Below are positions 49,227 to 62,167 of a DNA stretch of 64,000 nt, piece after piece (the first letter of the stretch is position 1; each line of letters begins with the position of its first letter). The stretch spans positions 62,001 through 126,000 of the forward strand of contig CACBYG010000001.1 of NCBI GenBank assembly GCA_902543535.1. The letters run 5' to 3'. The notes beneath the pieces were generated by a model. That model searched no databases, had not been told where the DNA came from, and saw nothing but the letters and a program-made list of their open reading frames with translations. The position numbers and the translations under genes were made by a program. Source of the stretch: an uncultured Pelagibacteraceae bacterium (GTDB taxonomy: Bacteria; Pseudomonadota; Alphaproteobacteria; Pelagibacterales; Pelagibacteraceae).

Positions 49227-50156
49227 TTAAGCAATAGATTTTAGAAAATTTCTATTAATTAGAGTGTGTGGCAGATTTTTTTCCTTTATCTCTAGAATAG
49301 AAAAATTCTCTTTATTTTGAAAAACTTTTCTTAATAGTTGATTTGTAAAATAATGACCACCCTGAGAACACTCTATACTTCCTACAATTCTGTAACCTGA
49401 AGTATAAAGATCTCCGATACAATCCAAAATTTTATGATTTACAAATTCCTTATCGTTTCTGAGTCCATCTGAATTTAATATTTCCTCGTCTTTAACTACT
49501 ATGGCATTCTCTAAGCTACCGCCTTTTGCCAGTCCATTTTTTTTGATAATTTCAATATCTTCAAATAAACAAAAGGTTCTAGAATTATAAATTTCTCTAA
49601 GATCATCTTCGTATACTTTGACTTTATTTCTTTGGTTTCCTATGATTTTATTTTTGTATTTCAATTCAAAGTCAATATCTAAACTTAGTGTTGAAGGTTT
49701 GATGGATATAAATCTTTCTCCATTTGAATATTTTATCTCTTTGTTTATTTTTATAACTTTAATTGGAGAGTTGCTTACTTCAAATCCTGATAAAATTATT
49801 TTATCTATAAATACTTTTGCTGAGCCATCTAAGATTGGAACTTCTTCATTATCAATTTCAATTAGTGCATTATCAATTCCTAAACCAAATAAAGCACCCA
49901 TCAAATGTTCTATTGTTGAAACTCGTGCACCGAACTCATTCTCTACTGTTGTGTTTAGAGATGTGTTTGTGACATTATTAAAATTCGGGAAAATAATATT
50001 ATTTGATTTTAAATCAACTCTCTTGAAAACAATTCCATAATCAGGTTCTGCGGGCTTTATACAAACATTAACATTGTGCCCATTATGTAAAGCTATACCA
50101 CTAAAAGAAATATTATTTTTTATTGTTTTTTGAGTTAAGTAAGACACATTTAACAT
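49227..50156 (-). CDS. lpxC: UDP-3-O-acyl-N-acetylglucosamine deacetylase
   Basis: A 309-residue LpxC, the committed zinc enzyme of lipid A synthesis. Zinc and catalytic motifs are VSTIEHLMGALFGLGIDNALIE (His near residue 80), KEFVNHKILDCIGDL (HKxxDxxGD, near residue 240) and IECSQGGHYFTNQLL (His near residue 268). Its presence implies lipopolysaccharide. It follows the ftsA-position gene after 55 bases, a place normally held by ftsZ. Confidence 0.95.
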   Translation of the reverse strand: MLNVSYLTQKTIKNNISFSGIALHNGHNVNVCIKPAEPDYGIVFKRVDLKSNNIIFPNFNNVTNTSLNTTVENEFGARVSTIEHLMGALFGLGIDNALIEIDNEEVPILDGSAKVFIDKIILSGFEVSNSPIKVIKINKEIKYSNGERFISIKPSTLSLDIDFELKYKNKIIGNQRNKVKVYEDDLREIYNSRTFCLFEDIEIIKKNGLAKGGSLENAIVVKDEEILNSDGLRNDKEFVNHKILDCIGDLYTSGYRIVGSIECSQGGHYFTNQLLRKVFQNKENFSILEIKEKNLPHTLINRNFLKSIA

Positions 50157-50211: not shown

Positions 50212-50916
50212 CTAGCTAAATAATTGAAAAAATTTTTCAAAAAAGCCTTTTTTTTTCAGGCTTTTTGAAACTAAAGAAATTTCATTCTGATTGTGACCGT
50301 TTTGTATTTTATAAGCAATTAAAGATAAGTCTAAATGTTCTCCCTGAAAAAAGTTTTTAATATATTTTTTTTCAAACAGACGATCTATTTTTATCTGATA
50401 TTTTTCGAGAACATTGCTTATTTCTTTAATTAAAATATTTGGTGCTGAAATAAAATTTACTTCAACACACATATGTTCAGCATCAATTTCTTTATCAAAA
50501 GATTTACAATCTAAACCGTCTATTAAATATCTATTTAGTGTAAAATGTATAATTTTATTATTTTGATAGTTTTCTTTAAATAAATCTTTTAGCTCACCTA
50601 AAGAACTTTCTAAATAATCTTTATTTATTTTTTCCCCATAATTTTGTTTTTTTATTCCAATTGAAGAATTCAAAATTTGTTCATTTTCAATTACCAAAAT
50701 AATAGTTTTTAAAAAATTACCAATTAATTTTTCAATTTTAAAAATATTTTTATCAAGAAAGTTACTCAATAAATTATAATCGATTAGATCTGTATCATTT
50801 TCTACATCAAGTTCTTCCTTATAAATATTTTTTAAATTTTTTTTATCCAATAAGTAAATCTCATATTTTTTTTTTGAAATACTTAAATAAGCTTCGATAC
50901 TTAATTTATCAATCAT
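50212..50916 (-). CDS. Truncated, divergent FtsA-like protein without ATPase core
   Basis: A 234-residue protein in the ftsA position, overlapping ftsQ by eight bases. Complete FtsA is about 410-420 residues. Residues 1-80 resemble a degenerate 1A start, with none of the glycine-rich phosphate loops. Residues about 81-181 match the FtsA 1C pattern: a strand (ILNSSIGIKKQNYG), a helix, then KIIHFTLNRYLIDG, comparable to the family ILHxxPxxYxxDG, and VEVNFISAPNILIKEI. The actin-like 2A/2B domains are missing. The last 15 residues, KKKGFFEKFFQLFS, look like the amphipathic membrane tail of FtsA. It might be a division anchor that no longer binds ATP. A PilM/GspL-like protein is the alternative. 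Confidence 0.6.
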   Translation of the reverse strand: MIDKLSIEAYLSISKKKYEIYLLDKKNLKNIYKEELDVENDTDLIDYNLLSNFLDKNIFKIEKLIGNFLKTIILVIENEQILNSSIGIKKQNYGEKINKDYLESSLGELKDLFKENYQNNKIIHFTLNRYLIDGLDCKSFDKEIDAEHMCVEVNFISAPNILIKEISNVLEKYQIKIDRLFEKKYIKNFFQGEHLDLSLIAYKIQNGHNQNEISLVSKSLKKKGFFEKFFQLFS

Positions 50917-51580
50917 TCAAAATAATTTGATTTTTAATTCTTGCATCAACAATTTTAATACCATTGATATTATTGTCATTTAAAAATTCAAAAGCTTGGT
51001 CTAATGAAAGTCTAGTATAATCCTTTGATAATTTTAAAATTATATTATTTTTAAGTTCTAAATCCCATCTTTTAGATGGGAAAAAATATAGATTTTTAAT
51101 TTTATTAAGTGAAAACTTTGATTGTTCAATTACATTGGTAAATTCTATAAATTCATCTATTTTTGGTTTACCAAATATAAAAGGTAGTTCTTTATCTAAA
51201 AGTTTTATATCAGATAACTTTCCATTTGATCCTATTAAAAACATTTTTCCATTTCTATTAATTTTTGCCAAAAAGTTAGTTTTTTCAATCTTGATATCTA
51301 TAGTGTCAGGATATTTTTTAAATATCGTGTAATTTTCAACTAAGGTACTTGAACTTATTATTTTTGAAATTTTATTTCCACTTAGGAAAAAAATATTTTT
51401 TAAATTTAGATTTTCAATATCTTTTAAAAGATTTATATTTTCATTTTCGTTTAATCCTGAAATTTCAATGTTTTTAATATTTTCAAATTGAATTCTGGTT
51501 AATGTATTATTGTTTATTGACCCAACTATTAGGAATAAAAATAAATATAATAAAACTTTTTTACCTATTTGTTGACGCAT
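50909..51580 (-). CDS. ftsQ: Cell division protein FtsQ
   Basis: A 223-residue bitopic protein, shorter than most FtsQ (about 270-300). A basic N-terminus and one membrane helix (VLLYLFLFLIVGSINNN) are followed by a POTRA-like domain (IKNIEISGLNENENINLL through YPDTIDIKIEKTNFLAKI) and a beta domain (KRWDLELKNNIILKLSKDYTR, typical of FtsQ). The large cytoplasmic N-terminal part of other alphaproteobacterial FtsQ is absent. It overlaps ddl by 20 bases and the FtsA-like gene by eight. Confidence 0.85.
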   Translation of the reverse strand: MRQQIGKKVLLYLFLFLIVGSINNNTLTRIQFENIKNIEISGLNENENINLLKDIENLNLKNIFFLSGNKISKIISSSTLVENYTIFKKYPDTIDIKIEKTNFLAKINRNGKMFLIGSNGKLSDIKLLDKELPFIFGKPKIDEFIEFTNVIEQSKFSLNKIKNLYFFPSKRWDLELKNNIILKLSKDYTRLSLDQAFEFLNDNNINGIKIVDARIKNQIILND

Positions 51581-59328: not shown

Positions 59329-62167
59329 TTAATTTGTACCTTTTAATTCTTTTACAATCTTATTGAAACCTGTCGCATTTGAGGCCTTTATCATCAAGAA
59401 ATCATCATTATCAAAGTTATTTTCAATTAGATCATTTATTTGCAATTTATTCTTTAAAACCGTGCCTTTTTTCAGTTTAGAAATTTTATTATATAAGAAG
59501 GAAATTTCTTTTCCTTTAACAAAAACTTTATGAATATTCGTCCTATTAATTACTGGTGCTATAGATTCATGAAGTTTTTTTGAATGGTTCCCAAGCTCTA
59601 ACATGTCACCAAGTATAAGATACTTTTTTGCATTTTTTGTTTTGATCTTGTTGTAATTTAATATTGCAGTCTTTAAGGACAACGGATTTGAATTATAACT
59701 TTCATCAATTAAGTTTATGGTTTTTTTATTCACTTTAATTTTTGTGATATCGCCTCTTCCCTCTGGAGTTCTGAAATTTAAAAACATATTTTTATCTAAT
59801 TTTAAAATATTAAAGAAAATACTTTTAACAGTTATTGCTGCTAAAATATTATAAATATAATTTTGGAAATCATTTGAAACTATAAAATCTTTTTTAATTT
59901 TATTTATTTTAATACATATTTTGTATTTTTTTTTTGATTTTATAATATTTTGTAGTTTAATATCTGCATATTGGTTGTTTATCCCAAAAGATAATACTTT
60001 GATTTTCTTTTTATGTGCTATTTTCTTATGTAAAACAAAAAAAGCGTCATCGGCGTTAAGAACTACATAGCCATTATCTTTGGTATTTCCAATTATTTCA
60101 GCTTTTGCTAAAGCTATTTGTCTAATGCTTTTAAAATTTTTAGCATGCGCGTAGTTAATATTTGTGATTACACTTATATCAGGTTGAATAATTTTTGATA
60201 GTTGATCAATTTCTCCTTTTTTGTCCATTCCAACTTCAATAACACCATAATCATCATTTTGATTTATATTAAAAAGACTTAGGGGAACACCATATTTATT
60301 ATTATATGATTTTGGAGATATAGTAGTTTTAGATATTTTGTTTAATGTGTTTCCCAACAATTCCTTTAAAGAAGTTTTTCCACAACTCCCTGTTATGGCA
60401 ATAATTTTTGTAGAAATATTTTTCCTAAAAATTTTTGCAGTCTCTGTAAGTAAACCTAAAGGGTTTATTGAGCTTGCTTGTTTCTTTGCGGGTAGTTTCT
60501 TTTGAATTTTATTAACTACAGTTACTGATGCCTTTTTTTTAATTGCTTGTTCAACAAATTTATTTCCATCATTTTTTCTTCCTTTAATTGCAAAAAAAAT
60601 ATCATTTTTTTTAATACTCTGGGAGTCTATGCTAGCTTTATTAATTACTGATTTGGATGGTAGAATATTTTGATCAAATCTTTCATTAAGAATATTTAAT
60701 TTTAAATTTTTAGATAAGTTAAAATTCTTTTTTTTAATTGAGCTTAAAATTATTTGCTTATCTGATAAAAAAAATTTTCTATTTCTAATCTGCTGAGTTT
60801 CTTCATGACCTTTGCCTGCAACTATTAATATATTTCCTGTATTTAAGTTACTTATTGCTTTTGCAATTGCCTCTTTTCTATTAGAAATTTCCACAACTTG
60901 GTGTTTTTTTATGCCCCTTTTGATCTCATCTCTTATTTTCTTGGGGCTTTCATATCTTGGATTATCATCCGTGAGATAAATTTTATCTGCATGTTTATCA
61001 GCAATTTTACCCATTTTTGATCTTTTACCCTTGTCTCTGTCACCACCACATCCAAATAGTACTGAAATATGATTATCAGGGAATTGTTCTCTAATATTTT
61101 GAATACAAGTTTGCAGGGCATCGGGTGAATGGGCGTAATCTAGGAATACTAATGATTTATTTTTAATTTTTCCAATTTTTTCAAATCTACCCTTAACTGG
61201 AGATAGTTTGGGAATAGCATTAAATATTTTTTGTAAATCTAAATTACTTTTTGAAGCTGCTATGACAGCCATCATAATATTTTTTAATTGAATTTTTCCT
61301 ACAAGATTAACTCTTACTTCATGTATTAAGTTTCCATGTTCTATTTTTAATATTTGAGCTTCATTTTTATAATTATGAGATAAAATTTGGAAATATTTAT
61401 TTTTAGGAGTAAATAATTTTAATTTTTTTTTTAAACTAATATTTTTAATCTTTTTAAATTCAGGTATTTTGTTATCAGTTACAATAAATCCGCCTTTTTT
61501 TATCAAATTTTGAAATAAGTAAAGTTTAGCATTAAGATAATTTTTAAAATTTTTATGATAGTCTAAATGATCTTGGGATAAATTAGTAAATATAGCTGAA
61601 TTAAACAATAATCCATCTAATCTATTTTGGTGTAACCCATGACTTGATGCTTCCATAATTACATTTTCTATTTTTTTTTTTTTTAGTTTGTTTAAAATTT
61701 TTCCTAAATAAATAGGATCAATAGTTGTGTTAAGTAAATTTAAATTAAAGTTATTTGATCTCACTCCTAGTGTTCCTATAGAAGCAACTTTTTTATTGTT
61801 GAGACGTAAAATTTGATAATAAAAATCTGAAACTGAAGATTTGCCATTTGTACCTGTTACAGCAATTAGGTTATTTGGTTTTTTTTTAAAGATACTAAAT
61901 GAAATTTGAGCTAGCAATTTTCTAATGTTTTTTGTATTGATAAATAAAACTCCATTTTTCCATTCATCAATATTTTTTTCAGTAACAATTATTTTACAAC
62001 CTTTTTTTATAACTGATGGTATAAAATTATTACCATCTAAATTATTTCCTTTGATTGCAAAAAAAATATAATTTTTTTTAATTTCTCTATGATCAAAACA
62101 AATCCCAGAAAAAAAAAGTGTTATGATATTTTTTTTTTATTTGTTGGAAGTGATCGCCTAAACGCAT
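59329..62167 (-). CDS. murE-murF: MurE-MurF fusion, frameshifted in the MurE N-terminal domain
   Basis: From 61917 downwards one frame codes for 862 residues holding most of MurE and then all of MurF. MurE (to about 60717) has TGTNGKSSVSDF, the catalytic NLSQDHLDYHKNF, and DDNPR (residues 317-321), which indicates meso-diaminopimelate as substrate. MurF has its own N-domain (NDIFFAIKGRKNDGNKF) and loop ITGSCGKTSLKE near residue 508. The MurE N-domain continues upstream in the same frame (SGICFDHREIKKNYIFFAIK) but has no start there. The natural start, ATG 62167 (MRLGDHFQQIKKKY), is in another frame that ends at 62093. A one-base change in the nine-A run at 62109-62117 would join them. Both ligase centres look intact. 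Confidence 0.85.
62093..62167 (-). other. Out-of-frame 5' end of murE with two long homopolymers
   Basis: ATG 62167 reads 24 codons to a TGA at 62095-62093. On the plus strand nine A lie at 62109-62117 and ten T at 62129-62138. Shortening the nine-run by one base yields a continuous MurE start with the typical order KKY-SGI-FDH. It is a sequencing or assembly error, a real mutation, or a slippage site. Confidence 0.8.

Follow-up and report, generated by a model that had tools for sequence, protein, structure and literature searches.

Subdomain 2B is the part of FtsA that binds FtsZ, and GspL is a known case of an actin-like adaptor whose ATP site does not work. Within FtsA filaments, the longitudinal contacts run between IIA and IIB, and the FtsN peptide occupies the cleft between IA and IC (PMC7613929). 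The C-terminal peptide of FtsZ is bound by FtsA (PMC5832921; PDB 4A2A). The E. coli variant FtsA*, deficient in self-interaction, recruits FtsN earlier, and its 1C domain is believed to be freer (PMC9426451).

Here we describe an orthologue of the FtsA family that fails two defining features of that family, the second lobe and the nucleotide motifs. It shares with FtsA (PF14450/PF02491, TIGR01174; PDB 1E4F/1E4G, 4A2A, 7Q6D/F/G/I) the locus, the 1A+1C fold with the C-terminal helix that returns to it, and the amphipathic helix at the end of the chain, but it differs in having 234 rather than about 400 residues, no 2A/2B lobe, no nucleotide motifs and no match to the family models. In the reading that we prefer, with a probability of roughly 0.7, this is an ftsA orthologue minus the whole of lobe 2, whose product serves as an ATP-independent, unpolymerised membrane adaptor that presents the 1A–1C cleft to later divisome proteins.

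A reduced ftsA gene between ftsQ and lpxC

The window, by which we mean the whole stretch of 64,000 nucleotides that was analysed, contains on its minus strand an open reading frame of 234 codons plus a stop at 50212–50916. A 234-residue gene between ftsQ and lpxC had been claimed by an earlier note on this DNA, and the reading frame and the Pfam matches of both neighbours bear this out:

50212–50916, minus strand: reduced ftsA, coding for 234 aa (lobe 1 of FtsA and a membrane tail), from the open reading frame, orthology by synteny and alignment, and fold
50909–51580, minus strand: ftsQ (context), from Pfam POTRA_1 and FtsQ_DivIB_C
49227–50156, minus strand: lpxC (context), from Pfam LpxC, E = 1.2e-91

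The first 8 nt of the reduced ftsA are shared with the end of ftsQ, 55 nt separate its own end from lpxC, and ddl, murB, murC and murG lie upstream of ftsQ–ftsA in the window. The order ftsQ-X-lpxC on one strand was seen at every locus in which all three genes were readable (155/155), which is the ftsQ–ftsA position in a division and cell-wall cluster. The window protein itself matched no Pfam or NCBIfam family and did not reach the cut-off of the curated FtsA model. The ftsZ gene does not directly follow ftsA: on the same contig some 15.5 kb separate the two, and ftsZ, about 1.7 kb beyond the end of the window, adjoins an mraZ-like gene. The ftsA–ftsZ distance is similar in relatives. By eye, a MurE-like and then a MurF-like ligase share a single 862-aa open reading frame in the window (59329–61917, minus strand), an apparent fusion.

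We sought relatives in 118 genomes of the same family; those named here belong to the Pelagibacteraceae (SAR11) and comprise single-cell genomes, MAGs and records of Candidatus Pelagibacter ubique. The relatives fell into two size classes. The short one, of 222–245 aa, occurs in many species of the genus to which the window belongs, and the full one, of about 368–418 aa, in further species of that genus as well as in the family's other genera. Among the genus genomes that were at least 90% complete, taken together with the window's own, 65 carried a short form (220–245 aa), 30 a full form (370–401 aa) and 10 a cut or broken frame, and no genome carried a short and a full ftsA together. The named single-cell and other genomes held 71 intact frames of 220–244 aa, conserved in size and place. 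Since the short form occurs in several 99% complete genomes that consist of a single contig, and in many single-cell genomes, an assembly artefact is ruled out. The short ftsA of one genome, G078 (L016:1464-2163), is broken near a T/A homopolymer, which may be a sequencing error or a true frameshift.

We also surveyed other Alphaproteobacteria, most of which gave a match to SHS2_FTSA; among the strongest matches, which are those listed, the frames were of about 400 aa or more, except for two apparently truncated ones (228 and 345 aa). All five near-complete genomes of genus g65, a small-genome alphaproteobacterial group (about 0.9–1.0 Mb), were without an SHS2_FTSA match, and FtsA may be absent or very divergent there.

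Fold and domain content of the short form

An AlphaFold2 model built on 72 short sequences reached a pLDDT of 85.4 and a pTM of 0.79. Its chain starts in 1A (strands 7–13, 17–24 and 29–37, helix 47–65, strand 71–76), continues through 1C (strand 82–91, helix 99–116, strands 120–132 and 148–159) and goes back into 1A (helix 160–171, strand 176–182, helices 183–189 and 197–205); the tail contains a helix at 225–232, within the low-confidence residues 210–234. The parts of the gene are the following:

50689–50916, minus strand: N-terminal part of subdomain 1A, residues 1–76 (strand-strand-strand-helix-strand), phosphate-1 Asp and Gly lost; from model secondary structure and motif counts
50440–50688, minus strand: subdomain 1C (SHS2-like), residues 77–159; from the model, SHS2_FTSA matches and a profile match to FtsA PDB chains
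50290–50439, minus strand: chain back in subdomain 1A, with the C-terminal helix (residues 160–209); from the model and a structural alignment reaching the C-terminal end of FtsA chains
50332–50343, minus strand: deletion junction, about residues 192–195, where full-length orthologues have about 142 residues more (2A+2B); from alignments and split profile matches
50215–50250, minus strand: C-terminal amphipathic helix KGFFEKFFQLFS, a putative membrane anchor common to full-length orthologues; from identity and hydrophobic moment

When the model was compared with known structures, the top 19 PDB matches of the fold search were all FtsA (4A2A, E = 3.6e-12), followed by PilM and GspL/EpsL. In the structural alignments about 200 residues paired with FtsA chains, spanning these from the N-terminus to the C-terminus, as would be expected if lobe 2 were simply absent; with 1E4G, for example, model residues 3–206 lay on chain residues 6–392 (Z 12.7, 4.0 Å). 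At the sequence level, the best PDB matches of a short-form profile were again FtsA, over 1C and its borders (E = 0.0036–0.02), and the full SAR11 forms matched FtsA at 1e-10. SHS2_FTSA matched 22 of 72 short forms at E ≤ 1, the best at 9.1e-5. Model and PDB comparisons both show 1A and 1C in the FtsA arrangement. The earlier note had proposed a 1C-like domain plus a membrane tail, to be checked by comparing a predicted fold with FtsA 1C, PilM and GspL. The fold came out as that of FtsA, ranking above PilM and GspL, and 1C and the tail are both present; the idea that 1C is all that remains of the body did not hold, as the model retains 1A too and hence the whole of domain 1.

We then located what is missing. 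Aligned with the full form, the short form is the full form minus one block: the two share the N-terminus to about residue 192, and then the last helix and the GFFEKFF tail. Numbered in the full form of genome G026, the absent block spans about residues 189–330 (142 aa), and on dozens of short genes the match of a full-form profile falls into two parts, positions 1 to about 183 and about 325 to 368. The gene is an orthologue of ftsA from which a single internal block has been cleanly deleted. The deleted block is the 2A/2B lobe, with the second phosphate loop, the adenosine loop, the FtsZ-binding site and the polymer interface, so that the two-lobed actin-like fold is not attained. Within this block the full forms of the genus keep the phosphate-2 Gly (28/29) and both adenosine glycines (29/29). 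The phosphate-1 Asp, in the retained 1A, is likewise D in 28 of the 29 genus full forms, and mainly Phe, Tyr, Ser, Ile or Leu in the short ones. All 94 short forms have phosphate 1 substituted and phosphate 2 and adenosine deleted; lobe 2 and the nucleotide site are lost together, and the absence of 2A/2B and the phosphate loops, suggested earlier, was confirmed by the alignments and motif counts.

The tail is the most conserved part of the short forms, with a mean pairwise identity of 74%. Its last 11 residues have a hydrophobic moment of 0.54 (shuffle p = 0.028), the median over 104 short forms is 0.55, and basic residues precede the amphipathic stretch. By sequence, the short form ends in the C-terminal amphipathic membrane helix typical of FtsA, and the Phe-rich, FtsA-like tail previously described is supported by moment, identity and its presence in full-length orthologues.

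We asked whether a second FtsA is encoded elsewhere. In the window's own genome the FtsA profiles found MreB, and TIGR01174 added one weak match, a 647-aa frame on another contig. Because this genome is only 80% complete, we turned to near-complete relatives. Among ten short-form relatives (97–100% complete), nine had a single PF14450 match and one had none; every match was MreB, 86–98% identical to the window genome's own MreB. In four full-form genomes the same profile found both MreB and FtsA. Neither a full-length FtsA nor a separate lobe 2 was found at another place in the short-form genomes searched: PF14450 matched MreB only and the full-form profile the short gene only. The full-length ftsA that could have overturned the earlier interpretation was not found by profile searches of near-complete short-form genomes.

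Selection, division partners and the role of lobe 1

Among close short-form pairs, the median dN/dS was 0.19 for ftsA, 0.18 for ftsQ, 0.09 for ddl and 0.07 for lpxC. The short ftsA is under purifying selection. A comparison of conservation between short and full forms singled out two segments:

50713–50778, minus strand: 1A helix, residues 47–68, with short-form-specific conserved L50, F53, N57, I61 and F68
50278–50298, minus strand: short-form-specific motif G207-x-N209-x-N211-E212-[VI], after the last helix

The positions of the 1A helix and the GxNxNE motif are strongly conserved in short forms but not in the full forms of the genus. Newly conserved positions are not expected of a decaying gene. 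That the short gene is a remnant on its way to being lost would fit its high divergence, its lack of a family match and the frame broken at a homopolymer in G078 (a single contig, 100% complete); with a dN/dS equal to that of ftsQ, a length kept at 220–245 aa in 65 genomes, a tail 74% identical and the new conserved positions, we consider this scarcely credible. A pseudogene as such was ruled out by dN/dS and conserved length.

The new constraint reflects either a gained binding face or a repacked core, and the short-form-specific positions could mark a changed function. The strongest rival to the adaptor reading builds on the former: lobe 1 would have been rewired so that a new surface, formed by helix 47–68 and G-x-N-x-N-E, binds the C-terminal peptide of FtsZ, making the protein an FtsZ anchor that needs neither ATP nor lobe 2. 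FtsZ was present in 29 of the 30 genomes examined, and in all 21 C-termini read, from short-form and full-form genomes, an acidic stretch is followed by [LF]EIPAFLRRQKN. The peptide is unchanged between the two genome classes, as a rewired lobe 1 would have it, although the peptide has other ligands in other bacteria and its conservation is unspecific. A search of 15 genomes gave no match to SepF or ZipA, while positive controls matched, which also speaks for such an anchor; these two proteins were the alternative anchors covered. As to the constraint on the two segments, it may only reflect repacking of the core after loss of the partner lobe. Weighing these points, we regard a rewired lobe 1 as possible but on balance doubtful.

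A third proposal removes the protein from division altogether, with lobe 1 recruited as the membrane adaptor of another machine. GspL/EpsL and PilM, the next fold matches, hold membrane partners through the same type of lobe. Like the short form, the GspL/EpsL cytoplasmic domain and PilM are actin-like FtsA relatives with a 1C-type domain; they differ in belonging to pilus or secretion systems, in their lower fold rank, in their gene context and in keeping part or all of lobe 2. FtsA ranked higher in both fold comparisons, the ddl-ftsQ-X-lpxC context is kept, the constraint equals that on ftsQ, no secretion or pilus genes adjoin the gene, and it does not qualify as PilM or GspL. We therefore view a non-division role as very improbable.

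Under the adaptor reading, the loss of lobe 2 (2A+2B) would leave one folded lobe (1A+1C), a short linker and an amphipathic helix through which the protein would bind the inner membrane. Such a lobe-1 FtsA would not bind ATP and would not make the 2A–2B longitudinal contacts of FtsA filaments; its state is probably non-polymerising. As a permanently unpolymerised adaptor it would offer the 1A–1C cleft to later divisome proteins, somewhat like FtsA*. By analogy, an unpolymerised FtsA may be a coherent end state, given the presumably freer 1C of FtsA* and its earlier recruitment of FtsN. E. coli FtsA* (R286W), self-interaction-deficient and with a 1C believed to be freer, is a functional analogue of what is expected of lobe 1 alone, but it is a point mutant that keeps lobe 2 (PMC9426451). 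With the known FtsZ-binding subdomain 2B gone, FtsZ would have to be tethered by an unrecognised anchor or through a new contact on lobe 1. For the same reason, an 'anchor' function of the short FtsA itself towards FtsZ can only be inferred. The low-confidence tail residues 210–234 and the new conserved positions could count against the adaptor reading, as could the lack of a recognised FtsN for the cleft. No FtsN was recognised in the SAR11 genomes searched, where the SPOR-domain matches were rejected as RlpA-like lipoproteins beside dacC-like and mltB-like genes. At L218-L222 the sole SPOR-domain protein found is RlpA-like and lies between a dacC-like and an mltB-like gene.

Evolution of the short form and its meaning

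Full length is most likely the ancestral state, because other genera have full-length ftsA. In trees of ddl, ftsQ and lpxC the short forms need two changes, as full forms, G026 among them, make up a small clade nested within the short ones; a single short-form clade is nevertheless not rejected by these flanking-gene trees (AU p = 0.18), and the ftsA tree does not settle the number of losses. One or more losses, or a recombination, may account for the short forms.

Full-length FtsA from other Pelagibacteraceae genera (L017-L034) has phosphate and adenosine motifs substituted, including phosphate-1 Asp to Glu (15/15) and phosphate-2 Asp to Asn (14/15); its ATP site looks dead, with lobe 2 still present. 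Degenerate nucleotide motifs are common to these proteins and the short form, and the difference is that the former keep a full-length chain with the lobe-2 region. Judging from these motifs, the FtsA ATP site seems to have been lost more than once in the family.

In the open-access literature, to which our search was confined, we found no report of a lobe-2-less FtsA in SAR11. The need of FtsA for ATPase activity and polymerisation is still debated, and the SAR11 pair amounts to a natural deletion: in close relatives within one genus, the same locus holds either lobe 1 by itself or a full FtsA whose motifs are intact. This pair makes it testable which tasks of FtsA require ATP, filaments or direct binding of FtsZ, and for reconstitution it points to a minimal FtsA of some 230 residues. 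A more tentative proposal is that in many SAR11 species lobe-1 FtsA has evolved a new FtsZ-binding face (helix 47–68 plus GxNxNE) and anchors the Z-ring as a non-polymerising, ATP-free adaptor; if true, the divisome of some of the most abundant cells in the ocean would operate without any FtsA-type actin-like ATPase. Short-form cells seem to divide without an FtsA able to act as an actin-like ATPase, and as SAR11 ranks with the ocean's most abundant groups of bacteria, this may be a common mode of division outside the textbook models.
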